A program made the position numbers and the translations under genes. A model generated the notes under the pieces. That model was given only the letters and a program-made list of their open reading frames with translations. It was not told where the DNA came from and made no database searches. This document shows, piece by piece, positions 7,047-34,220 of a DNA stretch of 64,000 nucleotides; the stretch's first letter is position 1, and every line of letters begins with the position of its first letter. The stretch is from Collimonas arenae (lineage in GTDB: Bacteria; Pseudomonadota; Gammaproteobacteria; Burkholderiales; Burkholderiaceae_D), in assembly GCF_001584165.1 (NCBI RefSeq), contig NZ_CP013233.1, positions 3,976,620 through 4,040,619 of the forward strand, read 5' to 3'.

Positions 7047-7319
7047 ATGCAACTATTCAAATCGCATCTACGGCAACCCGCAAGCCACTGGCAAAGCACC
7101 AGGCGATTGACGCTGACACTTATGCTGGTCTGGTTCACACTGACCTTCAGCGTCATCTACTTTGCGCGCGAGCTGTCGGGCATGAGCTTGTTCGGGTGGC
7201 CTTTGTCGTTTTATATGGTGGCACAGGGATTGGCGCTGGCCTATCTGCTGATCGTGGCGGTCTACACCTGGCAAATGCGAAAAATAGATAAACGTTATCC
7301 GGGCGCCGGACAGCAATGA
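7047..7319 (+). CDS. Sodium:solute symporter small subunit (DUF4212)
   Basis: A 90-residue protein with two hydrophobic helices (LTLTLMLVWFTLTFSVIYFA and FYMVAQGLALAYLLIVAVYTW) and a short basic C terminus. This is the layout of the small DUF4212 proteins that accompany VC_2705-type SSS transporters. It overlaps the next gene by 4 bases (ATGA), so the two are translationally coupled and probably assemble together in the inner membrane. It is 32 bp after the sensor kinase, so regulator, sensor and transporter look like one operon. Confidence 0.85.
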   Translation: MQLFKSHLRQPASHWQSTRRLTLTLMLVWFTLTFSVIYFARELSGMSLFGWPLSFYMVAQGLALAYLLIVAVYTWQMRKIDKRYPGAGQQ

Positions 7320-9368: not shown

Positions 9369-10301
9369 TCAGACCGCAAAACCGAAACCTGGCGCTTCAT
9401 GCCCAGGCAACACGGTCACCGCCACATCCATGGTTTGCTGGCCGCCGCCGATCAGCACGCCGCGCAGCGGCGAGACGTCGAGGAAATCGCGGCCCCAGCC
9501 GAGCGTGATGTGACTGGTGTCTGGAAAAATCCCGTTGGTCGGGTCGGCGTCGATCCAGCTGTTGCCCTCGCCATTGCTGCCGGGACAATACACGGATACC
9601 CAGGCATGCGAGGCATCGGCGCCGATCAGGCGCGCTTGTCCGGGTGGCGGTTCTGTCAATAGATAGCCGCTGACATAGCGCGCCGCCAGTCCCAGCGAAC
9701 GCAGGCAGGACAGCATGAAATGTGCAAAGTCCTGGCACACGCCACGTTGCGTGGCGAAGACTTCGGTGACGGGTGTGGATACGGTGGTGGCCAGCGGATC
9801 GAAGGTGAATTCGCGGAAAATCCGTGTCATCAGGGCTTCAATGCCGGCCAGCAAAGGCAGGCCGGGCGTAAAGGATTCCGCGGCGTAAGCCAGGAACTCG
9901 CGCTTGATCCTGACGTGCGCCGATTCGAACAGATAACGGCTGGCCTCGAGATCGTCCGGCAGCAGGAAACGCCCCGCCTGATAGGACAGCGTCTCGCGCA
10001 CCTGCTCCCATGGCAGCGTGGTTTGTGGCAACTGGCGCGGTGTCAGCGTGACCCAGGATTCGGCCAGCGCGCGCAAATCGTTATGATCGCTTTCCAGCGA
10101 AAACGATTGCAGCGGATTGCCGAAACTGTCAAGGAACATCCGCAACTGCTGCGGTTCCGGCGTGATGGTGATGCCGTGCGACGTACAAGTCTGCCAAGGC
10201 AGCGAACGCGGCGTCAGGCGCAGCATCTGGTGCGACAGGCGCACCGGCAACGAGTACGCGTAATGCGTATCGTGGCGGATGTGATAAACGTGTTCACTCA
10301 T
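9369..10301 (-). CDS. Transglutaminase-like cysteine protein (locus 1)
   Basis: A 310-residue protein of the bacterial transglutaminase-like family: an N-terminal beta-rich domain (HIRHDTHYAYSLPVRLSHQ, matching the Bact_transglu_N type) and a papain-fold core. The catalytic triad is complete: Cys189 in RGVCQDFAH, His232 in DASHAWVSVY and Asp251 in WIDADPTNG. Such proteins can cleave or form isopeptide or amide bonds; the substrate is unknown. Its ATG overlaps the stop codon of the ATP-grasp/alpha-E gene (TGATG at 10299-10303), so the two are co-translated. Confidence 0.9.
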   Translation of the reverse strand: MSEHVYHIRHDTHYAYSLPVRLSHQMLRLTPRSLPWQTCTSHGITITPEPQQLRMFLDSFGNPLQSFSLESDHNDLRALAESWVTLTPRQLPQTTLPWEQVRETLSYQAGRFLLPDDLEASRYLFESAHVRIKREFLAYAAESFTPGLPLLAGIEALMTRIFREFTFDPLATTVSTPVTEVFATQRGVCQDFAHFMLSCLRSLGLAARYVSGYLLTEPPPGQARLIGADASHAWVSVYCPGSNGEGNSWIDADPTNGIFPDTSHITLGWGRDFLDVSPLRGVLIGGGQQTMDVAVTVLPGHEAPGFGFAV

Positions 10302-12844
10302 CAGGAAACTCCCTGGCTGACCGGCGCATTCAACGGCGTAAAGAAATGCCGCGCCAATTCATCTGACAACGCAAAAGCACCGGTGATGGCGTCACGCATC
10401 AGTTGCACCAGGCGCGCATTGGCGTCCGTCAGGAACAGCGAATCGTGGCTGAGATCCTGCAGCTCGAACTCGCGCAGCAAGGCCGACAAATGTGCGGGCG
10501 TGTCCATGCTGAGCGTTCCCAGCTGTTCCCCGATATCGCTCAGATAGCGCTCCAGCATCTGGAATTGAAACGCAATGCCATGCGGATTGCTGACATCGAA
10601 CACCAGCAGATGCAACACCGGCAACCACTCCGGCGCGCGCCGATAGCGCACGCGATACGTCACCACGCTGTTGGCAGATTCCAGCAGCCACGGCAGTGCG
10701 CGGTTCTGTCGCTCCTCAGGCATGCGCAGGAACAGGCCGAACAATGTCGCTAGATGCGTCATGCGTTCAATGTGCCGTCCCAGCATCAGGAAATGCCAGC
10801 CTTCGTCGCGCGTCATGTCATCCAGCGCGTGGCCGGCCAGGCCGACACAGGCCTGGATCACATTGTTCAGCATGTTCATGGCAGCGGCCGGCAGTGTGCC
10901 AGCACCGCTGGCCTCCGCAACCAGCCCTGGCATACGGTTGAGCGCCTGCCAGTTATCTAGCGAAAGATGTTCCCGCACCTGGTAACCGCAGTGATGCAAG
11001 TGGCGCAGGTTGCCGGCAATGCCGATGCCGGCGCCCGGATTGACGATGGCGGCAATCAGGCCCTGCTGCATCGCGCCGACCGTCGGCCGTCCCGCAGCGG
11101 TGGCTTCCGGCAGCGCAATGCCGAGACCACGGCATATCTCGCATAACTGATAGAACGTCTCACGCGCCTCGCCCTGCAGATCCAGGCTGCGTTGCAGGGT
11201 GGCTCGCAGCAAATGTGCGAGGTTGTCACACCGTTCAGCATAGCGCCCCATCCAGAACAGGTTTTCGCCGGCATGCGATGAAATATCGACGGTGCTGCGA
11301 ATCGCATCCAGCGTGCGATGCCGTTCATCGATATGCTCGACCGGCGTACCAATCCCGTCAGTTGCATCAGCCATTTCCGGACGTATCTGTCCAAGCACCC
11401 AGACATCCTTGCTGGCGCCCCCTTGCTGCATCGACACCACATCCTTGCGCTGACGGGGCGCAACCCGTGTCAGACCGCCTGGCATCACGTGGTAGCTGCC
11501 GTCGGCGGCAGCCACTACGAACACGCGCAAACTCACCGCACGGCTCATCAGGCGATATTCGCCGCTGCGCGACAGCACCGGCGCCTGCGACAGGCGCACC
11601 CATTCCTGCGCCACATAAGCGTGCGGCTGCGCATGCAAGCTTTCGATCAGGCGCTGACGCGATTGCGCATTCAGGCTGTGGCCATAGACCGGCTGCATCC
11701 GCATCGATGGAAACGCCGGCATGATGACCAGTTGTTCCAGATTGGCCAAGGTGTATTCAAGCGCCGGCTTCTCGCCGCACCACCAGGACGCCACCGCCGG
11801 CAGTGCCAGGGGCTGACCAAGCAAGCGTTCGCAGATAGCCGGCAGGAAGCCGTGCAAGGCGCCGGACTCCAGTACGCCGCTGCCGAGCGAATTGGCGATC
11901 AGCACATTACCGAGACGCGCCGCCTGTACCAGCCCGGGAATGCCGAGCGCCGAATCGGCGCGCAATTCCAGCGGATCACAATAATCGTCATCGAGCCGAC
12001 GCAGGATCGCATGCACGCGACGCAATCCGCTCAGCGTTTTCAGATACACCATGTCGCCGCGCACCATCAGGTCGGCGCCCTCGACCAACGGAAAACCGAG
12101 CGTGTGCGCCAGGAATGCGTGCTCGGAATAGGTTTCATTGTAAGGCCCCGGCGTCAGCAGCACCACCAGCGGCGCCTCGCCGCCCGCTGGCGCCAACGCG
12201 CTCAGGCTACTGTGCAGGGTATGAAAGAATTTCAGCAGCGATTGCACATGCATGTCGCGCACCATGTCCGGCATCGCGCGCGACATGATCTGCCGATTCT
12301 GCAACGCGTAGCCGGCGCCCGAAGGCCCTTGGGTGCGATCCGACATGACCCACCAATGGCCATCCGGCGAACGCGCCAAGTCAATCGCGTACAAATGCAG
12401 ATGAATGCCGCCGGGCGGTTCGATGCCGCGGCACGGCCACAGATAGCCATGCTGGCCGAACACCAGCGCCGGCGGCAGCAAGCCTTCTGAAAGCAATGTT
12501 TGCGGGCCGTACAGATCAGCCAGTACCGTATTGAGCAGGCGTGCGCGCTGCGTCACTGCAGCAGACAGTGTCTGCCATTCCTCGGCAGAAATGATCTGCG
12601 GCAACAGATCCAATTCCCAGGGCCGGTTGGCTCCCTGTGGATCGGCATAAACATTGTAAGTAACGCCGTCGGCGGCAATGGCTTCGCGCACTTCGCGCGC
12701 ACGTCGGCGCAGGATTTCCGGCGACAGGTCTTCCAACTGATCGATCAGGGTGCGCCAGTGCGGCCGCAGACGGCCGCCAGGCTCAAGCATCTCGTCGTAG
12801 CGATCTGCTTCTGCGGGATAACTCTCGAGTAAACGCCGGTACAT
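10301..12844 (-). CDS. Fused circularly permuted ATP-grasp / alpha-E protein (locus 1)
   Basis: An 847-residue fusion. Residues 1 to about 480 match the circularly permuted ATP-grasp (CP-ATP-grasp type 2) protein at 19209: VTYNVYADPQG, TPGPYNETYSEHAFLA, RRLDDDYCDPLELR, MPGGLTRVA. Residues from about 525 match the alpha-E protein at 20626 (HAGENLFWMGRYAERCDNLAHLLR, LGRHIERMTHLATL). The segment aligned with the glycine-rich loop VVKEVHGAGGYGM of the stand-alone enzyme reads VIMPAFPSMRMQPVYG, and LEDNLRVPSG becomes MSDRTQGPSG. ATP binding may therefore be lost or altered. It sits between the 1117-residue transglutaminase (129 bp upstream) and the small one. The function is unknown; peptide ligation or tagging has been proposed for the family. 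Confidence 0.88.
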   Translation of the reverse strand: MYRRLLESYPAEADRYDEMLEPGGRLRPHWRTLIDQLEDLSPEILRRRAREVREAIAADGVTYNVYADPQGANRPWELDLLPQIISAEEWQTLSAAVTQRARLLNTVLADLYGPQTLLSEGLLPPALVFGQHGYLWPCRGIEPPGGIHLHLYAIDLARSPDGHWWVMSDRTQGPSGAGYALQNRQIMSRAMPDMVRDMHVQSLLKFFHTLHSSLSALAPAGGEAPLVVLLTPGPYNETYSEHAFLAHTLGFPLVEGADLMVRGDMVYLKTLSGLRRVHAILRRLDDDYCDPLELRADSALGIPGLVQAARLGNVLIANSLGSGVLESGALHGFLPAICERLLGQPLALPAVASWWCGEKPALEYTLANLEQLVIMPAFPSMRMQPVYGHSLNAQSRQRLIESLHAQPHAYVAQEWVRLSQAPVLSRSGEYRLMSRAVSLRVFVVAAADGSYHVMPGGLTRVAPRQRKDVVSMQQGGASKDVWVLGQIRPEMADATDGIGTPVEHIDERHRTLDAIRSTVDISSHAGENLFWMGRYAERCDNLAHLLRATLQRSLDLQGEARETFYQLCEICRGLGIALPEATAAGRPTVGAMQQGLIAAIVNPGAGIGIAGNLRHLHHCGYQVREHLSLDNWQALNRMPGLVAEASGAGTLPAAAMNMLNNVIQACVGLAGHALDDMTRDEGWHFLMLGRHIERMTHLATLFGLFLRMPEERQNRALPWLLESANSVVTYRVRYRRAPEWLPVLHLLVFDVSNPHGIAFQFQMLERYLSDIGEQLGTLSMDTPAHLSALLREFELQDLSHDSLFLTDANARLVQLMRDAITGAFALSDELARHFFTPLNAPVSQGVS

Positions 12845-12973: not shown

Positions 12974-15900
12974 TCAGAAGTGACGTAAGTCTAACGTAAA
13001 TGGGAACTCGATGGACGCTATCGGCGTGCTGACCTGCATCGGTCCCGGCGTGTGATTGAGACGGAAATAGCGTGCCAGGCGCCGGCTTTCCGCTTCGAAC
13101 GCATTGACCGGGAAGGTCTCGTAGCTGCGTCCGCCCGGATGCACCACGTGATACTGGCAACCGCCCAGGCTGCGGCCGTTCCAGGTATCGACCAGGTCGA
13201 AGGTCAGCGGCGAATCGATGCCAATGGTCGGATGCAGCGCCGACGGCGGCTGCCAGGCGCGGTAGCGCACGCCGCTGACGAATTCGCCGACCCTGCCGGT
13301 GGGCTGCAACGGCACCGGCACGCCGTTGCAGGTCAGCACGTAGCGATCCGGCGCCATGCCGCTCACCTTGACCTGCAAGCGCTCCAGCGACGAATCGACA
13401 TAGCGGGCGTTGCCGCCGGAACGGCTTTCCTCACCGAGCACATGCCACGGCTCCAGCGCGGTACGCAGTTCAAGCGCGATGCCATTCACTGCGAAATCGC
13501 CGATTTTTGGAAAACGGAATTCAAAGTGCGGCGCAAACCACTCCGGCTTGAGTGCATAACCGGCTTGCTGCATATCATCCATCACGTCGCAGAAGTCCTG
13601 CCAGATAAAGTGCGGCAACAAGAAGCGGTCATGCAGCTCGGTGCCCCAGCGCACCAGGCGCGGCGGCGTGTACGGCGTCTTCCAGAAACGCGCCACCAGT
13701 GCACGCAGCAGCAACTGCTGGGTCAGGCTCATGCGCGCATGCGGCGGCATTTCGAAAGCACGCAACTCCAGCAGGCCGAGGCGACCGGTGCTGCTGTCGG
13801 GCGAATACAGTTTGTCGATGCAGAACTCGGCGCGGTGCGTGTTGCCGGTAACGTCGATCAGCAAATTGCGCAGCAGACGATCGACCAGCCACGGCGCACA
13901 TTCGCCGACGGCAAGCTGTTTGTCCATTTCGGCAAACGCCAGCTCCAGCTCGACCACGGCATCGTTGCGCGCCTCGTCAACGCGCGGCGCTTGCGAAGTC
14001 GGCCCGATGAACATGCCGGAAAACAAATAAGACAACGCCGGATGGTTATGCCAGTAACTGATGAGGCTGCGCAACAGATCGGGCCGACGCAGAAACGGCG
14101 AATCGCCGGTAGTGGCGCCGCCCAGCACCAGATGGTTGCCGCCGCCGGTGCCGGAGTGGTGACCATCGAGCATGAATTTCTCGGTGGTCAAACGCGTCTC
14201 GCGAGCGACATCGTACAAATAGTTTGTATTGGCCACCAGCTCGGTCCAGCTATGCATCGGCTGGATATTCACCTCGATCACGCCTGGATCGGGAGTAACG
14301 CTGAATTTCGCCAGGCGCGGATCGGAAGGTGGCTCGTAGCCTTCCAGCAACATCGGTTGCTGCAACGCCTGGGCGGTAGCTTCGATGGCTGCCACCAGTT
14401 CCAGATAATCTTCCAGGCGCGCCAGCGGCGGCATGAACAAATACAAGGTGCCTTGCCGCACTTCCGCACACAATGCGGTTCGTGCGATTTGATCGGCGGA
14501 TTCGAACGGCCCCGGCACGGCGTGCGTCTCGCCATTGAACGCCGAACTGTATTTTGGTGCGTCACCGGCACCATTGCTTACCGTAGCTTTTGCGGCGGCG
14601 AAAGCCGGTGTCGCCAATTGATGGCGAATCTGCTGGGCGATCGGCAGCGGCTGGAACGCCTGGGTCGGATCGGCTTGGTGCACATAGGGAAAGTCGCCTT
14701 CCTTGACCCAAGGCTGCGAATCCAGCGGCAAGCGATAGCCCAACGGAGAATCCCCCGGCAGCAGGTAACAATACTCGCTGCGCAAGTACCAGCTGCCACT
14801 TTTCCAGCCGCTGTCGTCCGGCGTGCGTGCCAGCGGCAAGACAAACCCGGCGACCTTGCGCAATCCTTGCGAAAACACCCGCGCCAGCCTGGCGCGTTCC
14901 TGTTTGTCGTCGAGGCGGGCATCGGATGGATCGACGTTGATCGCCAGGCGGCGCTCGCGCCACAGATAGTAGTAGATGTCTTCGTAAGCTGCGAATACGT
15001 ACTGGCGATCCAGCACCAGGCGCGCTGCGACGCCTTGCAGAAAACGTTCGGCGACGCCGTCGTCGGGCGCCTGCTGCAATGTTTCATCGGCGATCAGTTC
15101 CGGCGTATTCCAGATCGGCTCGCCATCGCGGCGCCAGTAGCAATTGAGCGCCCAGCGCGGCAGCTGTTCGCCCGGATACCATTTCCCTTGGCCGAAATGC
15201 GGTAAGCCTTGCGCCGCGTACTGTTGACGCAGGCGGTGATATAGCTGGGCCGCTAAAGGCTTCTTGGTAGGGCCCATCGCGGCAGTGTTCCATTCATCGC
15301 CATCGGGATAGTCGAGCGCCACGAAAGTCGGTTCGCCACCCATCGTCAGGCGCACGTCAAGGTCATCGAGATCGTCGTCGATGGCGTGTCCCAGCTCTTC
15401 GATCTCCGCCCATTGCTGTTCGCTGTAAGGCTTGGTGACGCGCGGCGATTCCCAGATCCGGCTGACGCTCATCGCATGCTCGAACACCACTTCGCATGGT
15501 TCGACCATGCCGCTGACCGGCGCAGCCGACGATGGCTCGGGCGTGCATGACAGCGGGATGTGCCCTTCGCCGGCGAGCAGCCCGGAAGTAGGATCGAGTC
15601 CGATCCAGCCGGCGCCGGGCAAATACACTTCGCACCAGGCGTGCAGATCGGTGAAATCGGCTTGCGGCCCGGACGGGCCATCGAGCGACTTCTGGTCCGC
15701 CGTCAGCTGGATCAGGTAACCCGACACGAAACGCGCTGCCAATCCCAGATAACGCAGTATCTGCACCAGCAGCCAGGACGAATCGCGGCAGGATCCGGAA
15801 CCCAGGCGCAAGGTTTGCTCCGGTGTTTGCACGCCGGGCTCCATGCGGATCGTGTAGCTGATCATCTGCGCCAGCTTCTGGTTCAGGTTGACCAGGAAAT

Positions 15901-16327
15901 CCTCGCTGCGCACGCGCTCGCGCGGCACCTGGTCGAGAAATTTCTGCAGCAACGGCGTCAGCGGCAATTTCTTGCGATACGGCTCCAGCTCGTTCTGCAG
16001 TTCCGGCGCATACGAGAACGGCACTTTCTCGGCGTAGGGTTCCAGAAAGAAATCGAAAGGATTAAGGACCGACATTTCGGCCACCAGGTCGACCTCAATG
16101 CGGAATTCAGTGGTCTTTTCCGGGAACACCAGCCGCGCCAGGTAGTTCGCCTGCGGATCCTGTTGCCAGTTGATGAAATGCGGCTCCGGCAAGATCCGCA
16201 GCGAATAGCTGAGGATGCGGGTGCGGCGATGCGGTGCCGGCCGCAGGCGAATGATTTGGGGCCCCAGGCTGATCGGGCGTTCGTAGCGATAGGTGGTGAG
16301 ATGATTGAGTGCTACGTGAATTGACAT
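12974..16327 (-). CDS. Large transglutaminase-like protein with DUF2126 (locus 1)
   Basis: An 1117-residue protein. Residues 1-90 form the Bact_transglu_N-type domain (HLTTYRYERPISLGPQIIRL). The transglutaminase core follows with Cys180 in GSGSCRDSS, His229 in DLHAWCEVY and Asp245 in GLDPTSG. From about residue 325 (DVRLTMGGEPTFVALD) to the end is the DUF2126 region found only behind such cores. I start at 16327 (MSIHVALNHL) instead of the frame opening at 16345, since AGAGGAT lies just upstream. It begins the minus-strand locus 12974 to 9369. Function is unknown. Confidence 0.92.
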   Translation of the reverse strand: MSIHVALNHLTTYRYERPISLGPQIIRLRPAPHRRTRILSYSLRILPEPHFINWQQDPQANYLARLVFPEKTTEFRIEVDLVAEMSVLNPFDFFLEPYAEKVPFSYAPELQNELEPYRKKLPLTPLLQKFLDQVPRERVRSEDFLVNLNQKLAQMISYTIRMEPGVQTPEQTLRLGSGSCRDSSWLLVQILRYLGLAARFVSGYLIQLTADQKSLDGPSGPQADFTDLHAWCEVYLPGAGWIGLDPTSGLLAGEGHIPLSCTPEPSSAAPVSGMVEPCEVVFEHAMSVSRIWESPRVTKPYSEQQWAEIEELGHAIDDDLDDLDVRLTMGGEPTFVALDYPDGDEWNTAAMGPTKKPLAAQLYHRLRQQYAAQGLPHFGQGKWYPGEQLPRWALNCYWRRDGEPIWNTPELIADETLQQAPDDGVAERFLQGVAARLVLDRQYVFAAYEDIYYYLWRERRLAINVDPSDARLDDKQERARLARVFSQGLRKVAGFVLPLARTPDDSGWKSGSWYLRSEYCYLLPGDSPLGYRLPLDSQPWVKEGDFPYVHQADPTQAFQPLPIAQQIRHQLATPAFAAAKATVSNGAGDAPKYSSAFNGETHAVPGPFESADQIARTALCAEVRQGTLYLFMPPLARLEDYLELVAAIEATAQALQQPMLLEGYEPPSDPRLAKFSVTPDPGVIEVNIQPMHSWTELVANTNYLYDVARETRLTTEKFMLDGHHSGTGGGNHLVLGGATTGDSPFLRRPDLLRSLISYWHNHPALSYLFSGMFIGPTSQAPRVDEARNDAVVELELAFAEMDKQLAVGECAPWLVDRLLRNLLIDVTGNTHRAEFCIDKLYSPDSSTGRLGLLELRAFEMPPHARMSLTQQLLLRALVARFWKTPYTPPRLVRWGTELHDRFLLPHFIWQDFCDVMDDMQQAGYALKPEWFAPHFEFRFPKIGDFAVNGIALELRTALEPWHVLGEESRSGGNARYVDSSLERLQVKVSGMAPDRYVLTCNGVPVPLQPTGRVGEFVSGVRYRAWQPPSALHPTIGIDSPLTFDLVDTWNGRSLGGCQYHVVHPGGRSYETFPVNAFEAESRRLARYFRLNHTPGPMQVSTPIASIEFPFTLDLRHF

Positions 16328-16443
16328 GGGTATCCTCTGCAACAATCTATGAACTCAGCTTGAAAACTTCTGCCGCAACGCTTCAGTTAGCCAACAAGGA
16401 AAGCGGAAAAAAAATCGCGGGAAATCGTAACCGCTGGCAAACC

Positions 16444-17666
16444 CTAATGATGACTGTGAATGAAATCCCGCAAGCGCGGATAAATTTCGTTATCCCAGCG
16501 CCGGCCATTGAAGACGCCATAGTGCCCGACACCTGTTTGCACGTGGTGCGATTTCATGTACGGACGAATGCCGCTGCACATGTCCTGCGCCGCCACGGTC
16601 TGGCCTACCGCACAAATATCATCCTTCTCACCCTCCACGGTGAACAAAGCCGTGCGGCGAATCGCCGCTGGTTCGACGGTGCGCCCCAGCGCCTGCAGCT
16701 CGCCCAGCGGCAGTGCGTGATCCTGAAACACGCTTTGCACCGTTTCCAGGTAAAACTCGGCGGCCAGATCCGACATCGCGAAATACTCGGCGTAAAAAGT
16801 CTTGATGGTGTTGGCTTTTTCCACCTCCCCTTCGACCAGATAGTTATACAGGTTTTGAAAGGCCTTCATGTGCCGCTCCAGGTTCATGTTCATGAACGCG
16901 GTCAGTTGCAGGAAACCGGGATAGACCTGGCGTTGGCTGCCAGCGTAACGACCGGGAACGGTGCTGACCAGATTTTTTCAAACCAGTCGATCGGCTTGCT
17001 TTTGGCCAAGTGGTTGACTGCGGTCGGATTGATGCGGGTATCGATCGGGCCGGCCATCAGGGTCATGCTGGCAGGTTGCGCCGAATGGCGTTCCGCCGCC
17101 ATCAGCGAGACCGCCACGAGCGCCGCCACGGTCGGCTGGCAGACCGCCACCAGATGTGTGCCGGGACCGATTGTCTCGATAAAGCGGATCAGGTGCGCGA
17201 CATACTCGTCGAAGCCAAAACGACCGTCGCTCAAAGCGACATCGCGGGCATTGTGCCAGTCGGTGATATAGACATCGTGATCGCGCAGCAGAGTTGCCAC
17301 AGTGCCGCGCAGCAAGGTCGCGAAATGGCCTGACATCGGCGCCACCAGCAGGACGCGAGGCTGCTCTATATTGCTGCTCTTGCTGAAGCGCAACAAAGTA
17401 CAAAAGGGCGTTTGTTCAATCACCTCTTCATGCACCGAAACCGTGCAACCGTTCTCTTCCACGCTGTCGATCCCGAATGCAGGGCGCTGATGCGTCAACT
17501 GGGTGCATGAAAACACTTCGCAGGCTGCCGCCATCTTACGCAGCGCCAGACTGTCCGGCCAACCCGGCCATTTGTTGCTGAACATGGGAGCCGCTGCACC
17601 TGCCAGTACGCGCATCGGATCGCTGAGATCCGCATAGCCCTGATATGCCTGGTAAATTTTCGTCAT
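16444..17666 (-). CDS. phaZ: Intracellular polyhydroxybutyrate depolymerase (apparent frameshift)
   Basis: Degrades stored poly-3-hydroxybutyrate granules; alpha/beta hydrolase fold of the PhaZ family. The N-terminal part (from 17666) has the family opening (KIYQAYQGYADLSDPMR), VLLVAPMSGHFATLLRGTV and DVYITDWHNARDV. The nucleophile region reads VCQPTVAALVAVSLMA, with the Cys nucleophile used by PhaZ in place of Ser. The C-terminal part in another frame starts at NMNLERHMKAFQ and ends SGIRPYMKSHHVQTGVGHYG with the catalytic His region. One A is missing from the A-run at 16973-16978 (T on the plus strand); restoring it gives EKNLVSTVPGRYAGSQRQVY and about 407 residues, the normal length. Confidence 0.9.
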
Positions 17667-17807
17667 GGGACTACCCTGTTATTGGACTACCCGCATTCGA
17701 CTCAACTGCAATAACTATGCCCAACTATCTGGCACGGCCTTTGCTCAGCATTATGAAACGGTTTGCCAATCAAAATCGCTTTCGACCCAATACGGAAGAA
17801 TATTGCC

Positions 17808-18464
17808 ATGCCTAAGACCACCTTGAGCATTACCAGCAAAAACTATTCGTCATGGTCGTTGCGCGGATGGTTGCTGACGAAGTTTTCGGGGCTGGAATTC
17901 CAGGAAAACATGATCTCGCCGGACGACCCGGACGCCCGCGCAGAAATCCTCCTGCTATCCTCGTCGATCCTGGTGCCCTGTCTGTATCACGGCAATATTG
18001 TGGTGTGGGACACCTTGGCCATCGGCGAATACCTCAATGAAATCCGGCCTAAAGCCGGACTGCTGCCAGCCGATCGTGCAGCGCGCGCCCACTGCCGCTC
18101 AATCTGCGGCGAGATGCATTCCGGCTTCAGCGCCCTGCGCTCAGCCCTGCCGATGAATATCAAGGCGCGTTTTCCCGACTTCAAGGTGTGGTCGCGCGCG
18201 GAAGCCGACATCAAGCGCATCACTACCATCTGGAAACAGTGCCTGGCGACCTATGGCGGACCTTTTCTGTTTGGCGAGGAACGCTCCATGGCGGACGCCA
18301 TGTACGCCCCGGTAGCTACCCGATTCCTGACCTACGATGTCAAACTGGATTCCATCTGCAGCGCATATTGCAAGCGCATCATCTCGATGTCGGAAATGCA
18401 GGAGTGGATCAAGGCCGCCAAGCTCGAACCGGAAGATATCAATGAACTGGATGTGGAGTTCTGA
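17808..18464 (+). CDS. Glutathione S-transferase-like protein
   Basis: A 218-residue protein with a thioredoxin-like N-terminal domain and an all-helical C-terminal domain. The start of the fold, LSITSKNYSSWSLRGWLLTK, carries the Ser that replaces Tyr as the glutathione-activating residue in many bacterial members, and SSSILVPCLYHG holds the cis-Pro. I start at the second Met (17808), which has GGAAGA upstream. The substrate is unknown. It is divergent from phaZ and 46 bp before the cupin gene. Confidence 0.85.
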   Translation: MPKTTLSITSKNYSSWSLRGWLLTKFSGLEFQENMISPDDPDARAEILLLSSSILVPCLYHGNIVVWDTLAIGEYLNEIRPKAGLLPADRAARAHCRSICGEMHSGFSALRSALPMNIKARFPDFKVWSRAEADIKRITTIWKQCLATYGGPFLFGEERSMADAMYAPVATRFLTYDVKLDSICSAYCKRIISMSEMQEWIKAAKLEPEDINELDVEF

Positions 18465-18510: not shown

Positions 18511-18945
18511 ATGGATACAAATACGGAAACCAGCCCACATACCTTGTTTTCCCACGTCTGCGAAGGCGACACCGCATTCGAGTCAGGCGGCTTGCGCGAT
18601 TTTTTCCTGTATCGCGACCTTGGCATCGCGGCCGCTACCGGCGGCCAGGTTGTCGCCCATCTGGTCAAAGCCAACATGGCGCCGGAAGTCGGCACCGGCT
18701 GGCATCGGCATGAAGCGAATTTCCACATCGTGTACATGCTCAAAGGCTGGGCGCGCTTCATGTATGAAGACAAGGAAACCCTGGTCAAGGCTGGCGATTG
18801 CGTGCATCAGCGCCCCGGTATCGTGCATTTTTTATTCGACTACTCCAAAGACATGGAGTATCTTGAAATCGTCAGCCCGGCAGCGTTCACCTCAATCGAC
18901 ATGCCCGCACCGTGCGCCGTCCCGGCGCCGAAGCCTTGGGTTTGA
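18511..18945 (+). CDS. Cupin-domain protein
   Basis: A 144-residue single-cupin protein. The first motif reads GTGWHRHEANFHIVYMLKG, with two His and a Glu as metal ligands, and the second QRPGIVHFLFDY supplies another His. A strong GGAGGGA ribosome site precedes the ATG. It may be a small metal-dependent oxygenase, an isomerase or a ligand-binding protein; the sequence does not decide. Probably co-transcribed with the GST-like gene. Confidence 0.8.
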   Translation: MDTNTETSPHTLFSHVCEGDTAFESGGLRDFFLYRDLGIAAATGGQVVAHLVKANMAPEVGTGWHRHEANFHIVYMLKGWARFMYEDKETLVKAGDCVHQRPGIVHFLFDYSKDMEYLEIVSPAAFTSIDMPAPCAVPAPKPWV

Positions 18946-19208
18946 GCAGGATCGCCAGCATTTGACACTATTTTTTGCAATCAAATCAACACGGAGGTCA
19001 TCACCCAGATTACGCAAAATTTGCTAAGAGCGGACGTAGCTGCGCCGAAAACAAATCTATTCAGAACACATTACACCGTGTTAATCTTTGAATAAGATAA
19101 TGCTTATTAAGCAACCAACGGCAACAGCCGGCGACAAACCGCATGCTACGGGCACGCTTCTTGATAGCTACTTGATAGTTTCCGATCAAACCACAGCAAA
19201 GCAAGATC

Positions 19209-20624
19209 ATGGCAAATTTTTTCGATGAAATGTATTCCGATGGCAACTCGTCGGTGCGTCCGCACTATGACGAATTCTCCACTTGGCTGGCAGCGCAAAG
19301 CGCTGAAACGATCGCCCGAAAACGCGCCGAAGCAGACCTGATTTTCCGTCGGGTCGGCATCACCTTCGCCGTGTATGGCAACGACGCCGGCACCGAACGC
19401 CTGATCCCCTTCGACATCATTCCGCGCATCATCCATGCGCAGGAATGGGCAACTCTGGAAGCCGGCCTGGTACAGCGCGTCAAAGCGCTCAACATGTTCA
19501 TCCACGACATCTACCACGACCAGAACATCGTCAAGGCCGGCGTGATCCCCGCCGAACAGATTTTCCGCAACGCCCAGTATCGCCCCGAAATGCAAGGCAT
19601 CTCGGTCGCTTCCGATATCTACGCGCATATTGCCGGCGTCGATATCGTACGGGCCGGCCAGGGCGAGTTCTACGTGCTGGAAGATAACCTGCGGGTGCCG
19701 TCCGGCGTGTCCTACATGCTGGAAGACCGCAAGATGATGATGCGGCTTTTCCCGGAGCTGTTCCTGCGCCACAAGATCGCGCCGGTTGCGCATTACCCTG
19801 ACATGCTGCTCGACAATCTGCGTTCGGTCGCACCGATCGGCGTCACCGATCCTACCGTGGTGGTGATGACGCCGGGGATGTACAACTCGGCCTACTTCGA
19901 ACACGCGTTCCTGGCCCAGCAGATGGGCGTGGAACTGGTCGAAGGGCAGGATCTTTTCGTCAACGACAACGCCGTTTACATGCGCACCACGCGCGGCCCC
20001 AAGCGAGTCGACGTAATCTATCGCCGTATCGACGACGACTACCTCGATCCGCTGGCCTTCCGCCCCGATTCGTCGCTCGGCGTACCGGGCCTGCTGTCGG
20101 TGTACCGCGCCGGCAACGTGACCTTGGCAAATGCGATCGGCACCGGCGTCGCCGATGACAAATCGATCTATCCATTTGTACCGGACATGATCCAGTTCTA
20201 TTTGTCGGAAAAACCGATCCTCAATAACGTCCCCACTTTCCAGTGCAGGAAGAAGGAAGATCTGCAGTACACGCTCGATAATCTCAAGGATCTGGTGGTC
20301 AAGGAAGTGCACGGTGCCGGCGGCTACGGCATGCTGGTTGGACCGGCCTCGACCAAGCAGGAAATCGAGGATTTCCGCCAGCGCGTCATCGCCAAGCCGG
20401 ATGGCTACATCGCACAGCCGACGCTGGCGTTGTCCGCCTGCCCGACCTATGTCGAATCCGGCATTGCACCGCGCCACATCGACCTGCGGCCGTTCGTACT
20501 ATCCGGCAAGACCGTCTCAATGGTGCGCGGCGGGTTGACCCGCGTAGCGCTCAAGGAAGGCTCGCTGGTGGTCAACTCGTCCCAAGGCGGCGGCACCAAA
20601 GACACCTGGATTCTGGAGAAATAA
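19209..20624 (+). CDS. Circularly permuted ATP-grasp type 2 protein (Anbu locus)
   Basis: A 471-residue stand-alone CP-ATP-grasp protein, a possible ATP-dependent peptide (amide) ligase. Motifs: VYGNDAGTERLIPFDIIPRI near the N terminus, VLEDNLRVPSGVSYMLEDR, TPGMYNSAYFEHAFLAQ, RRIDDDYLDPLAFR, the glycine-rich KEVHGAGGYGMLVGP loop, and MVRGGLTRVAL near the C terminus. All look intact, unlike the fused paralogue at 10301. The alpha-E gene follows one base after the stop codon. This pair, a transglutaminase and Anbu recur together in proteobacteria. The reaction catalysed is not established. Confidence 0.9.
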   Translation: MANFFDEMYSDGNSSVRPHYDEFSTWLAAQSAETIARKRAEADLIFRRVGITFAVYGNDAGTERLIPFDIIPRIIHAQEWATLEAGLVQRVKALNMFIHDIYHDQNIVKAGVIPAEQIFRNAQYRPEMQGISVASDIYAHIAGVDIVRAGQGEFYVLEDNLRVPSGVSYMLEDRKMMMRLFPELFLRHKIAPVAHYPDMLLDNLRSVAPIGVTDPTVVVMTPGMYNSAYFEHAFLAQQMGVELVEGQDLFVNDNAVYMRTTRGPKRVDVIYRRIDDDYLDPLAFRPDSSLGVPGLLSVYRAGNVTLANAIGTGVADDKSIYPFVPDMIQFYLSEKPILNNVPTFQCRKKEDLQYTLDNLKDLVVKEVHGAGGYGMLVGPASTKQEIEDFRQRVIAKPDGYIAQPTLALSACPTYVESGIAPRHIDLRPFVLSGKTVSMVRGGLTRVALKEGSLVVNSSQGGGTKDTWILEK

Positions 20625-20625
20625 C

Positions 20626-21642
20626 ATGCTCAGTCGTACCGCCGATCATTTATTCTGGATGTCCCGCTACACCGAGCGGGCAGAAAACACAGCGCGCATG
20701 CTGGATGTACACGTGCAAACCGGCTTGCTGCCGCAATCGGTCGAAGATGCTGAAAAAGGCTGGCGCGCAATCCTCGGCATTTCCGAACTGCAGCAGGCAT
20801 TCGACAAGAAATACAGCGTCCTGACGCAAAAGGACGTGATCGATTTCATGGTGCGCGATCCCAGCAATCCGTCCTCGATCGCCTCCTGCCTGAAACAGGC
20901 GCGCGAGAATGCACGTGCCGTGCGCGGCGCGCTGACCACGGAGGCCTGGGAAATTCAGAATGCCACCTGGATCAAGATGCAGGGTTACCTGCAGACTGAT
21001 GCGCTGGAGCAGAATCCTAGCGAATTCTTCGAATGGGTCAAGCACCGTTCGCATCTATCGCGCGGCGTCACCATCGGCACCATGCTCAAGGACGAAGCGT
21101 TTCACTTCATCCGCCTCGGCACGTTCCTGGAGCGCGCCGACAATACCGCGCGCATCATCGACGTCAAGTTTCACGGCGCCAAGGAAGGTGCGGCCTACAA
21201 GAAAAACGGCCAGCAGCAAGTCCAGAGCAAGGAGCAGCAGCACGCCGAAGAGCGCAAGGACGCCATCGCCGAACCGCAGGTCGATTTCTACTACTGGGCG
21301 GCAATCCTGCGTTCAGTGTCCGGCTTTGAAATCTACCGCAAGGTGTACCGCGATGTGATCACACCGGCGCGCGTGGCCGATTTGCTTATCCTGCGGCCGG
21401 ACATGCCACGCTCATTGCTGGCTTGCATGGAACAGGTGGTTGGCAACCTGAAGCATGTGCGCAACGACATTTCGTCCGATACCGAACGCTTCGCCGGCAA
21501 GCTACACGCCGATCTGAAGTTCAGCAATCTCGACGAGATCCTCGATGCCGGCCTGCATGACTACCTGACACGTTTCTTCGAGCGGGTTTTCGAACTCGGC
21601 AACCGCATCAGCCGCGATTTCCTAGTGCCGTTGAATACATAG
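20626..21642 (+). CDS. Alpha-E domain protein (Anbu locus)
   Basis: A 338-residue, nearly all-helical protein of the alpha-E (DUF403) family. Two related motifs, RYTERAENTARML near the N terminus and FLERADNTARIID in the middle, are the conserved Glu/Arg/Asn helices that name the family. A charged Gln/Lys/Glu-rich linker (about residues 190-215) separates the two halves. It starts one base after the CP-ATP-grasp stop, so the two are translated as a pair; in locus 1 the same two domains are fused. Presumably a partner of the ATP-grasp enzyme; biochemical role unknown. Confidence 0.9.
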   Translation: MLSRTADHLFWMSRYTERAENTARMLDVHVQTGLLPQSVEDAEKGWRAILGISELQQAFDKKYSVLTQKDVIDFMVRDPSNPSSIASCLKQARENARAVRGALTTEAWEIQNATWIKMQGYLQTDALEQNPSEFFEWVKHRSHLSRGVTIGTMLKDEAFHFIRLGTFLERADNTARIIDVKFHGAKEGAAYKKNGQQQVQSKEQQHAEERKDAIAEPQVDFYYWAAILRSVSGFEIYRKVYRDVITPARVADLLILRPDMPRSLLACMEQVVGNLKHVRNDISSDTERFAGKLHADLKFSNLDEILDAGLHDYLTRFFERVFELGNRISRDFLVPLNT

Positions 21643-21769
21643 CTTTGCAACACCATGACCTGGAAGCGGCAGTTAACGCGGCTTACGCAGTATTTTCAAA
21701 CCCGTCAGCCAGAAAGCCGGACATGCACTTCACTACCTGCGTCACCGCTGCTTCCAGGACAGAGCCGCC

Positions 21770-22581
21770 ATGCTATTGACCATTCGGCATGAAACGGTCT
21801 ATCACTACACCGCTCCGCTGACTTACACCATCCAGCAGTTGCGCCTGTCGCCGCGTGCCGAGGTACAGCAGCGCACGCTGGCCTGGAATATCCGTAGCTC
21901 GGGCACCCGCCATCCGTTCACCGACGCCTTTGGCAATCTCAGTCATACGCTCACCATCACCCGGCCGCACCACGAGGTGCGCATCATCGCCGAAGGCACT
22001 GTGGCGGTTGCGCCTTTGCATTTGGGGCGCCTGCCGCAGCCGGGCGAATTTTCGCCGTTGGTATTTACGGTGCCAACGCAACTGACGCAGCCCACCGTTG
22101 CCGTGACGGACTTCGCCCATCGCCATCTTCAGGCGGGCGCCGGCAGCAGGCAATTGCTGGATCTGGCACAGGCCATCTGCGCCGCAGTTGCCTATCAAAG
22201 CGGCTCGACCGCCGTGACCACCAGCGCCGATGACGCGCTGGCGCAAGGCCAGGGGTATGCCAGGATCACGCCCACTTGTTCCTCGCTTGCTGCCACACTG
22301 TCGGCATCCCGGCGCGCTACGTATCGGGCTATATCGACCCCGGCAACACCAATCACGCGGAAAGTCACGCCTGGGTCGATGTCTGGGTGCAGGAACGCGA
22401 TTTTTCAGGCTGGATCAGCATCGATGTGACCCATGCCTGCTTTGCCAGCAGCAATTATTGTCGCCTAGCAATTGGACGCGACTACGATTCGGCGGCGCCG
22501 GTGCGCGGCGTTCGACGCGGCGGCGGCGAGGAAACGCTGACGGTACAGGTGAATGTTTCCACACTGCCATCAGATCAATGA
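21770..22581 (+). CDS. Transglutaminase-like protein (Anbu locus, apparent frameshift)
   Basis: Papain-fold transglutaminase-like protein, about 270 residues once the frame is repaired. The N-terminal domain (ETVYHYTAPLTYTIQQLRLSP) is followed by DALAQGQG. One G is missing from the GGGG at 22252-22255, just ahead of the catalytic Cys codon. Restoring it gives GVCQDHAHLFLACC, then AESHAWVDVW and WISIDVTH, so Cys, His and Asp are all present. Without repair, the enzyme would lose its whole active site. It ends with RRGGGEETLTVQVNVS, the tail shared with the 310-residue paralogue. Confidence 0.85.
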
Positions 22582-22697
22582 AATCAGCAGGAGAATGTGT
22601 AAAAACTTGTTGCATAACCAATAAAACCGTAGCAACCTGACCAGGAAACGATGTTGGGTTCCTGTAAAATCCTTACTTTGCATTTTTCTCTGACACC

Positions 22698-23570
22698 ATG
22701 ACTTACTGCGTCGCCCTGCGCCTCGATTCCGGCCTGGTTTTTCTTTCCGACTCACGCACCAACGCGGGTGTCGACCATGTAGCCACCGCGCGCAAGATGA
22801 GCGTGTTCGAGAATTCCGGTGATCGCCTGATGGTCCTCATGACCGCCGGCAACCTGTCGATCTCGCAATCGGTCAAGGAAGTCATCGGCGAGCGCATGAA
22901 TGCCGCCGGCAAAACCATCTGGACTGTCGATTCGATGTACGAAGCCGCGCAAATCGTCGGCGAGGCAATCCGCACCGTACACGACCGCGAAGCGCAGGCA
23001 CTGGAAAAATTCGGCATCGATTTCAACGTCAGCATCATCTTCGGCGGCCAGATCAAGGGCGAGCGTTGCCGCCTGTTCCAAATTTATTCAGCCGGCAATT
23101 TCATCGAATCGCACAACGAAAACACCTATTTTCAGATCGGCGAATCGAAGTACGGCAAGCCGATCCTGGATCGCGTCATCACGCCGGCTTCGTCGCTCGA
23201 CGAGGCGGCAAAATGCGCGCTGATTTCCATGGATTCAACGCTGCGCTCCAACGTCTCGGTTGGTTTGCCGCTGGATATGCTGTTGTACGAAAACGATACA
23301 CTGGCAGTGACCCGCTTCGTCACCATCGGTGAAAAGAACCAGTACTTCCAGATGATCCGCGAAAACTGGGGCAAGCAGCTCAAGACCGTATTCGACGGCC
23401 TCGCCGATCCGGTCTGGAATGCCGACCCGGAAACCACGGCTAATGTGCTCTCGGCGCAAGGCTCACGCAGCCAGCCGCTGGTGGTGCTGCCACCACAAGG
23501 ACTGGCCACCGAACATCCACCTGCGCCGCTACAGACGCTGGCACAAGGCAGCGACAGCAAACAACGCTGA
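22698..23570 (+). CDS. Anbu, proteasome-like (HslV-related) peptidase
   Basis: A 290-residue protein of the Anbu family (ancestral beta subunit, COG3484), related to HslV and proteasome beta subunits. It starts MTYCVALRLDSGLVFLSDSR; removing Met exposes Thr1, and Asp17 (SDSRTNAG) and the Lys of ATARKM follow with proteasome-like spacing. GNLSISQSV and FNVSIIFGGQIKG match the proteasome beta strands. The last 50 residues are a Gln/Pro-rich tail. Anbu forms ring-like or lock-washer assemblies in other bacteria. It lies 116 bp after the transglutaminase and is followed by a strong terminator, so it is probably the last gene of the CP-ATP-grasp/alpha-E/transglutaminase operon. Confidence 0.93.
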   Translation: MTYCVALRLDSGLVFLSDSRTNAGVDHVATARKMSVFENSGDRLMVLMTAGNLSISQSVKEVIGERMNAAGKTIWTVDSMYEAAQIVGEAIRTVHDREAQALEKFGIDFNVSIIFGGQIKGERCRLFQIYSAGNFIESHNENTYFQIGESKYGKPILDRVITPASSLDEAAKCALISMDSTLRSNVSVGLPLDMLLYENDTLAVTRFVTIGEKNQYFQMIRENWGKQLKTVFDGLADPVWNADPETTANVLSAQGSRSQPLVVLPPQGLATEHPPAPLQTLAQGSDSKQR

Positions 23571-23580
23571 AGACCTCATG

Positions 23581-23619
23581 AAATGAAAACGGCGCCCTGA
23601 TTCGGCGCCGTTTTCATTT
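23581..23619 (+). terminator. Terminator after anbu
   Basis: A perfect 16-bp stem, aaatgaaaacggcgcc (23581-23596) with its reverse complement at 23604-23619 and a 7-base loop, followed by T-rich sequence; the outer A/T pairs let it work in both directions. It starts 10 bases after the anbu stop codon. Confidence 0.88.
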
Positions 23620-23660
23620 CAAGTTCGCGTAGCAGCGCGGGCTGCCCTCGTAGCAACTGC

Positions 23661-23738
23661 GTCATCCCCGCGAACGCGGGGATCCAAATTGACTGAATAA
23701 GGTCATGAAAATGGGTTCCTGTATTCGCGGGAATGACG
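23661..23738. repeat. Pair of inverted REP-like units
   Basis: gtcatccccgcgaacgcggg (23661-23680) and, in opposite orientation, a second unit ending attcgcgggaatgac (23724-23738). The two outer ends are inverted repeats of each other, like a BIME. They sit between the convergent anbu and panB genes. Similar pairs occur at 31130-31193 and a single unit at 12913. Confidence 0.75.
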
Positions 23739-23767
23739 ACAAACACCGCCACTGCCGCCGGTTTGGT

Positions 23768-31309: not shown

Positions 31310-31977
31310 TCAATCTTCATAACGCTTTAAGCTCGCCGCCATGCCCTTGTCCAGATCGGACATGCAACTTACCGTCACGCCCAGATCGCGCAACAGTCCG
31401 TCGCGCAGCCATAGACCCAGCTATGAATGGTCAGTGGCTGGCCGCGCTCCCAGGCGTCCTGGACGATCGTAGTACGGCAGATATTGGCAACCTGCTCCAT
31501 GGAGTTGAGTTCACACAGGCGATCGTGGCGCAAACTCTCAGGTAACGCTTCGCCCAAATACCGTTCGTGTTTCTGGTGCACATCTTCGACATGGCGCAAC
31601 CAGTTGTCCGCCAGGCCGACGCGGCGCTTGGTAAGGGCGGCGTGAACGCCGGAGCAGCCATAATGGCCGACCACGAAAACGTGCTTGACCTTGAGTACGT
31701 CGACGGCAAACTGCAGCACCGACAGGCAGTTCAGGTCGCTGTGTGCAACCACGTTGGCGACGTTGCGGTGAACGAACAACTCACCCGGCAGCAAGCCCAG
31801 CAATTCATTTGCCGGCACCCTGCTGTCGGAACACCCAATCCAGAAATACTCTGGCGTCTGTTGCGCTGCCAGGGTTTTGAAAAAGGCCGGATCGCGGGCG
31901 GTAATTGCCGCCGCCCACTCACGGTTTCTCTGGAAAAGATCTTCTCTGGTCAGGGATTGCTTGTTTTTTGCTGTCAT
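31310..31977 (-). CDS. can: Beta-class carbonic anhydrase (apparent frameshift)
   Basis: Hydrates CO2 to bicarbonate. Zinc ligands are visible: Cys and Asp/Arg in WIGCSDSRVPANEL, and His/Cys in VVGHYGCSGV. The open frame ends early with WVYGCATDCC. If one C is restored at about 31408 (GGCTGC to GGCCTGC), it continues as YGLRDGLLRDLGVTVSC to a stop at 31310, giving about 222 residues, the normal length and the usual C-terminal block. The main frame alone already covers the whole active site. I annotate the repaired gene. Confidence 0.87.
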
Positions 31978-32961: not shown

Positions 32962-34086
32962 TTATTCGAAGAACTCTTTTACCTTGTCCTTCCAGGACTT
33001 GGTTTGCGGGCTGTGCTTGGCGCCGCCTTCACTGGTCAGTTGCTCGAACTCCTGCAGCAATTCCTTCTGGCGCTCACTCAGCTTGACCGGGGTTTCCACC
33101 ACGACGTGGCAGAACAGATCGCCGGCGTAGCCTGAGCGTACACCCTTGATACCCTTGCTGCGCAGGCGGAAGGTCTTGCCGGACTGGGTGCCGTCGGGGA
33201 TCGTGAACGAAGCCTTGCCGTTCAATGTCGGCACTTCGATTTCACCGCCCAAAGCCGCTTTGGCAAACGAGATCGGCATTTCGCAATGCAGATCGTCGCC
33301 TTCACGCTGGAACACCGCGTGCGGTTTGATGTGAATTTCCACATACAAGTCGCCAGTCGGCCGCCATTCATGCCTGGCTCGCCATTGCCGGAAGAACGAA
33401 TCCGCATGCCATCGTCAATACCAGCAGGAATCTTCACTTCCAGTGTTTTGTTGCGCTTGATGCGGCCAGCACCGGCGCAAGACGGACACGGCTCGGGAAT
33501 GATCTTGCCGCTTCCATGACATTTCGGACAGGTCTGCTGAATGCTGAAGAAACCTTGCTGCATGCGCACCTGGCCGTGACCACCGCAGGTCGGGCAAGTG
33601 ACCGGCTCAGTGCCGGCTTGGCGCCGCTGCCGTGACATGGTTCGCATTCATCCCAGGACGGTACCCGGATGGTAGTGTCGAAACCGTGTGCCGCCTGCTC
33701 CAGCGTGATTTCCAGGTTGTAGCGCAGATCGGCGCCGCGATACACCTGTGGTCCGCCACCACGGCCGCCGCGACCACCGCCGCCACCGAAAATGTCGCCG
33801 AAGATATCGCCAAAGGCATCGGCGAATCCGCCCGCGCCACCACCGCCGCCACCCATATTGGGATCGACACCGGCATGGCCATAGCGGTCATAAGCATCCC
33901 GCTTTTGCGGGTCTGACAGCATTTCGTAGCTTCTTTCGCCTCTTTGAACTTCTCTTCCGCACCCTTGCTATCCGGATTGCGGTCCGGATGATGCTTCATT
34001 GCGAGCTTGCGGTACGCCTTCTTGATTTCTTCATCAGAAGCGTTTTTCGCAACACCCAGTATTTCGTAAAAATCACGCTTCGCCAT
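32962..34086 (-). CDS. dnaJ: Chaperone DnaJ (three apparent frameshifts)
   Basis: Hsp40 co-chaperone that delivers clients to DnaK and stimulates its ATPase. The J domain ([20 protein letters not shown]) contains HPD in [12 protein letters not shown] Gly-rich stretch follows, and then the zinc-finger region with [31 protein letters not shown] and [10 protein letters not shown]. The C-terminal substrate-binding part ends [12 protein letters not shown]. Frames break at about 33926-33930 (GCTACG, one base lost), 33613-33614 (GG for GGG) and 33359-33360 (CC for CCC). Restoring one base each gives about 375 residues, the standard DnaJ length. Confidence 0.92.
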
Positions 34087-34220
34087 CTTTTTACACCCTC
34101 TTGTTTAAGCGAAAACGCCGAACAGGGCATCGCAAGCGATGGCATCTGTCCGGCGCGTCTTCGCGATGCTTGCCGCTCCGATCTACACATCGGATCGGCA
34201 GGCCATCGCTGACGAAGAGA

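Follow-up and report, generated by a model that had tools for sequence, protein, structure and literature searches.

A 64,000-nucleotide stretch of the Collimonas arenae genome (contig NZ_CP013233.1, positions 3,976,620 to 4,040,619; hereafter the window, numbered from its first letter) carries an operon for the proteasome homologue Anbu, together with genes for a circularly permuted ATP-grasp (CP-ATP-grasp) protein, an alpha-E protein and a transglutaminase-like protein (TGase). The genome is assembled as a single contig of 4.72 Mb. The operon has the following features:

19209–20624, + strand: CP-ATP-grasp, predicted amide ligase, 471 residues (PF14403, 561.8 bits; PF04174, 528.6 bits)
20626–21642, + strand: alpha-E protein, 338 residues (PF04168, 332.2 bits)
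21770–22255, + strand: TGase gene, N-terminal part (PF08379); the open reading frame (ORF) continues to a stop at 22429
22234–22581, + strand: rest of the TGase gene, read in a different frame; contains the GVCQDHAH motif of the catalytic Cys and Transglut_core (PF01841)
22698–23570, + strand: Anbu, 290 residues (PF00227, 25.3 bits; cut-off 22.4)
23529–23546, + strand: LQTLAQ, Anbu residues 278–283, a conserved tail peptide found by tail comparison

Profile matches confirmed that the CP-ATP-grasp, alpha-E and Anbu families lie collinearly on the + strand in the order given by a first-pass annotation of the window, and the coordinates bore out both the single base between the CP-ATP-grasp stop and the alpha-E start at 20626 and the 116-bp gap before anbu (22582–22697). 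The CP-ATP-grasp gene itself stood, but its start moved from 19208 to 19209.

The Anbu operon belongs to a larger conserved unit that includes a second ligase operon. The other members of this block are:

17763–18464, + strand: glutathione S-transferase (GST)-like protein (PF13409), in the same place in congeners; this is the listed ORF start, and the true start may be further in
18511–18945, + strand: cupin protein (PF07883), in the same place in congeners
16444–17666, − strand: phaZ, intracellular polyhydroxybutyrate (PHB) depolymerase, split in two frames (PF06850, TIGR01849)
12974–16345, − strand: TGase/DUF2126 putative amidoligase, 1123 residues (PF09899, 1342 bits; PF08379; PF01841)
10301–12844, − strand: fused CP-ATP-grasp and alpha-E, 847 residues (PF14403, PF04168; predicted template-modelling score of the model 0.81)
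9369–10301, − strand: second TGase, 310 residues in one frame (PF08379, PF01841)

The second TGase, the fusion, DUF2126 and phaZ lie on the − strand, and GST and cupin, followed by the Anbu operon, on the + strand. Gene order from DUF2126 to Anbu was kept in all 11 congeners with spanning sequence, of which six reached the fused gene and five the second TGase; the sequences of G004 and G014 were too short to judge block order, and G001 gave no Anbu match. Two named Herbaspirillum loci (L072, L075) have the block and lack the operon TGase. The two ligase systems are merged in G015 and G023 (DUF2126, fusion, TGase, CP-ATP-grasp, alpha-E, Anbu) and in G034 (DUF2126, fusion, TGase, Anbu).

We scanned the window with a sigma54 matrix based on the consensus, and compared the sites between these genes across 12 Collimonas genomes, this one included:

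17730–17745, + strand: sigma54 consensus TGGCACG-N4-TTGCT, directed toward GST, cupin and the Anbu operon
17707–17722, − strand: divergent sigma54-like site, directed toward phaZ and the DUF2126 operon
19139–19208, + strand: conserved 70-bp stretch before CP-ATP-grasp, with 61 of 70 positions invariant in the 12 genomes
19150–19165, + strand: sigma54-like site GGGCACG-N4-TTGAT with a weak −12 half, before CP-ATP-grasp

The + site at 17730, in the 96-bp gap between phaZ and GST, fits the −24/−12 element TGGCACG-N4-TTGCW and is the top sigma54 match of the window (19.5 bits; the next scores 13.4). Its divergent neighbour scores 12.4 bits here and 14.2 in the other 11 genomes, and both back-to-back sites are present in 12/12. 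The phaZ/GST gap measures 376–377 bp in G003 (L031/L032 region) and G009 (L048), compared with 96–144 bp otherwise, and the extra sequence there lies between the + site and GST. For comparison with the 70-bp stretch, only 171 of the 471 third codon positions of CP-ATP-grasp are invariant in the same 12 genomes. A corresponding site reads TGGCACG-N4-TTGAT in several Duganella and Rugamonas loci; four loci from Janthinobacterium (L086, L087, L089, L090) have TGGCACG-N4-CTGCT there. A sigma54 score of at least 13 bits was found before CP-ATP-grasp in 44 of 70 loci, as against 1.4% of random 300-mers; these loci are interrelated (many come from Paraburkholderia, Duganella and Janthinobacterium) and include this genome and G003. 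A second set of 40 operons, taken from the 68 Anbu genomes counted below and hand-picked for a listed, linked alpha-E gene rather than drawn at random, gave 14/40, with 0/40 on the antisense strand and 1.9% in random sequence. We also observed a palindrome, GCAAAATTTGC, at 19014–19029, about 190 bp before CP-ATP-grasp and present in six aligned genomes, which is possibly a regulator site.

Nitrogen control of the Anbu operon is already known in print, with dependence on sigma54 reported in one species and not in one study of another. In Burkholderia cenocepacia, I35_5080-83 and I35_4672-73 are NtrC/sigma54-dependent (PMC5491218). For the Pseudomonas putida operon PP_2685-2688, in which PP_2685 resembles a 20S proteasome beta subunit, control by NtrB/NtrC is considered likely and induction by nitrogen limitation is cited from earlier work; in the wild type PP_2686-2688 rose 11–15-fold under nitrogen limitation (PMC7801951). 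Two other studies cited there found PP_2685 induced as well, and the P. putida data disagree on this gene and so on a single transcript that includes anbu (PMC7801951). In addition, COG3484 is named in a sigma54 survey, and nitrogen starvation of P. phymatum is reported to raise the expression of PHA (polyhydroxyalkanoate)/PHB depolymerase genes and of a phasin. A shared back-to-back promoter linking phaZ with both ligase operons was not found in the parts of the literature searched. The block layout, the Anbu tail peptide and the alpha-E duplication described below were likewise not found in print, in a search that did not cover Iyer 2009.

The CP-ATP-grasp protein covers its two profiles end to end (PF14403, 1–374/374; PF04174, 1–332/332), and its nearest solved structure is 3n6x (3n6x_A, E 1.4e-234). 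Its fold matches that of glutathione and glutathionylspermidine synthetases, which points to this enzyme class and to a predicted ligation activity. The alpha-E protein also spans its profile (PF04168, 1–294/294) and is an internal duplication of two homologous helical halves (half against half, HHalign Prob 98.65, E 4.9e-16); both halves carry an ER motif (E17-R18 and E169-R170) that is invariant in 25 aligned rows; its structure model has a predicted local distance difference test (pLDDT) score of 87.9. The closest named alpha-E homologue (97%) is from Collimonas, and so is the closest of the named Anbu loci, of which the 80 best-scoring of 595 were used.

We then counted the families in 200 Pseudomonadota genomes, with cut-offs of E ≤ 1e-20 for Anbu and DUF2126 and 1e-10 for alpha-E. 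Anbu was found in 68 genomes, alpha-E in 112 and DUF2126 in 63. Alpha-E was present in 67 of the 68 Anbu genomes (Fisher 1.9e-21), within 12 kb of Anbu in at least 59; in eight, alpha-E was present but none lay within 12 kb among the matches listed. All 63 DUF2126 genomes had alpha-E, and 35 genomes had both Anbu and DUF2126 (Fisher 2.3e-5). Conversely, 45 of the 112 alpha-E genomes had no Anbu, and 17 had neither Anbu nor DUF2126. From these counts CP-ATP-grasp/alpha-E look like a hub with Anbu and DUF2126 as optional modules, CP-ATP-grasp itself being outside the phylum-wide count. In the 80 named loci, some of whose stretches are short and may hide partners (L145, 5.2 kb; L148, 4.5 kb), CP-ATP-grasp or alpha-E lay on the stretch in 66 and the operon TGase in 53. 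The operon TGase was absent from 13 of the 66 partner-linked loci, six of which carried a second TGase on the stretch. Fourteen named loci showed no partner beside Anbu on the stretch; of the 12 genomes examined from these, 11 had alpha-E elsewhere, and in Achromobacter pulmonis none was found. The first-pass claim that the published set recurs in proteobacteria holds beyond chance grouping, with one exception among the 68 genomes (G133) and one among the 12.

The TGase had been annotated as one of the four genes, but in this sequence its frame is broken before the catalytic Cys: the ORF from 21770 carries PF08379 alone, and the motif and PF01841 lie in a different frame. The pieces are collinear with the intact genes of congeners, in which the motif falls within one frame of 272–301 residues in 13/13 with the region read. 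The broken frames suggest an error-prone assembly, phaZ likewise being in two frames. Counting clean splits at 80% identity or more only (a looser count is higher, but includes probable non-gene ORFs), we found that 6/27 genes of G002, 3/26 of G007, 7/62 of G003 and 3/17 of G005 were split in this assembly. In the control the corresponding numbers of genes split in G003 were 0/30 (G002), 0/26 (G007) and 0/21 (G005), and in the reverse test 2/87 ORFs of this assembly were split in G003. Single-base losses outnumbered gains by 70 to 31 against G003, 12 to 8 against G007 and 19 to 11 against G002, and a 400-residue gene near 33–34 kb showed three frame changes between pieces 86–98% identical to their counterparts. 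Because the TGase is intact in all 13 congeners, split genes are many and losses exceed gains, the break is likely a sequence error rather than decay.

Were the break real, this strain would lack the TGase step, and its operon would be decaying or functioning in the absence of that step. Several observations fit this: the frame ends before the catalytic Cys, the alpha-E/TGase gap (21643–21769) is 127 bp long compared with at most about 25 bp from the alpha-E stop in five congeners, and the Herbaspirillum operons L072 and L075 do entirely without this TGase. Given the intact congener genes, the frequent high-identity splits and the excess of losses, we consider a real break doubtful. More than 100 bp of 21643–21769 have no counterpart in the five compared congeners; this segment is single-copy in the genome, and no plasmid match was found for it. 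Further genes with frames broken relative to congeners lie at 16444–17666, 31313–31977, 32965–34101, 4738–5474, 7316–9348 and 57108–57802.

Anbu aligned with solved Anbu chains (5loy_A, 5.2e-89; 5nyw_A, 6.9e-76; 5nyj_A, 8.3e-70), and its putative catalytic residues Thr2, Asp18 and Lys33 are invariant across 13 aligned sequences; in the literature the set is numbered as the N-terminal Thr after Met, Asp17 and Lys32(33). The expectation that Anbu forms HslV-like rings did not survive comparison with the published assemblies, which are described as an open split ring or lock-washer (Fuchs 2017, PMC5666114; Piasecka 2018, PMC6376114). Upstream of anbu, within 22640–22697, 11 of 12 Collimonas genomes share an identical block TTCCTGTARAATC, from which G010 departs by one change. 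This block is possibly a promoter of anbu's own or a regulatory site, but the promoter scan gave no sigma70-type call there on the + strand. The strong terminator claimed after anbu proved to be a strong hairpin at about 23579–23621 (−30.4 kcal/mol; shuffled sequences −12.2 ± 2.6; z −7.0). It is probably a terminator, which could serve both strands, although its T run sits within the stem and the terminator pattern scan did not list it. Beyond it, at 23650–23760, we noted GC-rich inverted short repeats (CCCCGCGAACGCGGGG and similar) that by eye resemble repetitive extragenic palindromic elements.

Many Burkholderiales Anbu proteins extend past about residue 240 in a tail of about 25–75 residues (about 50 here), mostly variable, with a short peptide kept near the end. 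The words tail and disordered are absent from the 2017 Anbu paper (PMC5666114). The pattern [AILVMPFR]Q[TSVIL][LVF][AST], widened after the sequences had been seen, was applied to 88 tails of at least 25 residues; seven shorter tails were excluded, and G037, one of 96 loci, gave no Anbu ORF. It occurred in 61 of 72 tails linked to CP-ATP-grasp or alpha-E, compared with 3 of 16 unlinked and 2.3% of shuffled tails; a stricter pattern was found in 29/95. Matches to Q-[TSVIL]-[LVF]-[AST] end 8–10 residues before the C-terminus in 57/64. Many unlinked loci belong to Comamonadaceae genera, so that lineage and linkage are inseparable in this comparison. Of the 13 unlinked tails without the peptide, 11 have, by eye, a different ending in common that resembles PLKKI-TP-EKLI (L130, L133, L134, L137, L141, L142, L144-L148, with no partners on the stretch).

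We propose, at somewhat below even odds (about 0.46), that the ten genes form a nitrogen-starvation block, probably driven by sigma54, of which the Anbu genes are one half and which makes and cuts amide conjugates. This proposal builds on gene content, synteny, the sigma54-type sites, the ligase fold and co-occurrence. Under nitrogen shortage, NtrC with sigma54 would switch on both halves in this organism. CP-ATP-grasp would then form an amide between an amine (an amino acid or polyamine) and a carboxylate group on a small peptide or metabolite, a role suggested by analogy because enzymes of its fold (glutathione synthetase, glutathionylspermidine synthetase, YgiC/YjfC) do so. Alpha-E, its regular and sometimes fused partner, may assist by presenting the substrate. 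The papain-like TGase and Anbu, an N-terminal nucleophile hydrolase, would cleave the amides back, with Anbu acting as an amidase on the conjugate and not as a bulk protease. Between them, ligase and amidase could keep, trim or recycle a conjugate rich in nitrogen during the mobilisation of PHB. The TGase step in this strain would be either hidden by sequence error or lost, in which case the two intact neighbouring TGase genes might substitute.

Several observations weigh against this proposal. The strength of the − site is ordinary, since random 64-kb sequences give about nine sites of at least 12.4 bits; the case for it comes from position and conservation. The site at 19150–19165 has GA for GC at −12 in 12/12 genomes, and with so poor a −12 half the operon may need the GST promoter or some other factor for its expression. 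Scores fell below 13 bits in 26/70 and 26/40 operons. As for NtrC sites, a GCAC-N7-GTGC palindrome is present in 12/12 genomes, within the phaZ coding sequence, where coding constraint may explain it. The P. putida rpoN mutant keeps the induction of PP_2686-2688 (14–20-fold), and PP_2685 barely rises (1.12-fold in the wild type, 1.45 in the mutant); induction of urtABCD in the same table also persists without rpoN (PMC7801951). Because induction there survives the loss of rpoN, sigma54 dependence failed this one test in that organism, and we hold the proposal less firmly for it. The 2017 Anbu paper describes operon expression as constant under various conditions, nitrogen limitation excepted (PMC5666114). 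In published tests, Anbu showed no activity towards three proteasome peptides, nor did it form a stable complex with its partners, and in the sources covered neither a substrate nor ligation or hydrolysis is demonstrated.

The Anbu papers report a different hypothesis, that ATP-grasp and TGase tag proteins with a peptide or an amine and that Anbu degrades or de-tags these proteins (PMC5666114, PMC6376114), and the first-pass annotation had suggested much the same for peptides. Two amide-forming or amide-exchanging families do lie beside a proteasome homologue and almost always share its genome, and the ATP-grasp/protease pair RimK/RimB attaches glutamates to a ribosomal protein and takes them off again (PMC12239564). 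However, the ligase shares its fold with small-peptide ligases, and we found no positive evidence for tagging. Given the negative published tests, the 13 of 66 linked loci without the TGase and the 45 of 112 alpha-E genomes in which the ligase side is independent of Anbu, we regard tagging as unlikely.

Slightly less likely still, we think, is a system for making a peptide or metabolite, in which the ligase works with alpha-E and DUF2126 to assemble an oligopeptide for secretion or storage, and Anbu and TGase only mature it. A protein of related fold, Cp1B, is described as making E-64-like pseudopeptides, and DUF2126 and the fused ATP-grasp/alpha-E gene adjoin the operon. Yet no tailoring family matched among the neighbouring ORFs scanned, a scan that did not extend to short precursor-peptide ORFs; a sodium/solute symporter (7558–9351) is the closest transporter, and housekeeping fits nitrogen control better. 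Finally, the tail peptide could couple Anbu physically or chemically to the ligase, either as a dock for CP-ATP-grasp/alpha-E or as a glutamine-bearing or terminal acceptor for ligase and TGase that would make Anbu itself the carrier of the conjugate formed in nitrogen starvation, but we give this little credence.

In the sources covered, the Anbu operon has had no proven function since its description in 2008–2009. The present evidence narrows the question: it offers a growth condition that agrees with the literature (nitrogen starvation), additional partners (two ligase operons, DUF2126 and a PHB depolymerase), a ligase class, a two-part alpha-E and a defined Anbu peptide that could be deleted; a known operon, now placed in Collimonas, thereby becomes accessible to ordinary experiments with harmless soil bacteria. 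Valas and Bourne in 2008 and Iyer in 2009 are said to have described the operon.

Its ligase resembles glutathionylspermidine synthetase/amidase (GspSA) and the peptidylpolyamine synthetases YgiC/YjfC in fold and in the pairing of ligase with amidase. The amidase of GspSA is of a different type from the TGase; the system here has separate genes, an alpha-E partner, a TGase-type amidase and an added Anbu. RimK/RimB and Rlo likewise pair an ATP-grasp protein genetically with a protease, but their proteases are aspartic, and the excerpts available mention neither alpha-E nor Anbu (PMC12239564). The published Anbu operon shares the families, their order (ATP-grasp, alpha-E, TGase, Anbu) and the Anbu Thr/Asp/Lys (PMC5666114, PMC6376114); here, in contrast, the TGase frame is broken, Anbu has a tail of about 50 residues with a conserved end peptide, and a divergent block adds a second ligase operon, phaZ, GST and cupin. 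PP_2685-PP_2688 of P. putida comprise a proteasome-like gene, a TGase and two further genes, with induction by nitrogen limitation and NtrB/NtrC proposed; there PP_2685 hardly rose and induction did without rpoN, whereas here control is read from sequence (PMC7801951). I35_5080-83 and I35_4672-73 of B. cenocepacia share CP-ATP-grasp, alpha-E, TGase and large TGase, PHB depolymerase, GST and control by nitrogen starvation, but are numbered as two loci (PMC5491218), whereas in Collimonas these genes form one continuous block that includes the Anbu gene.

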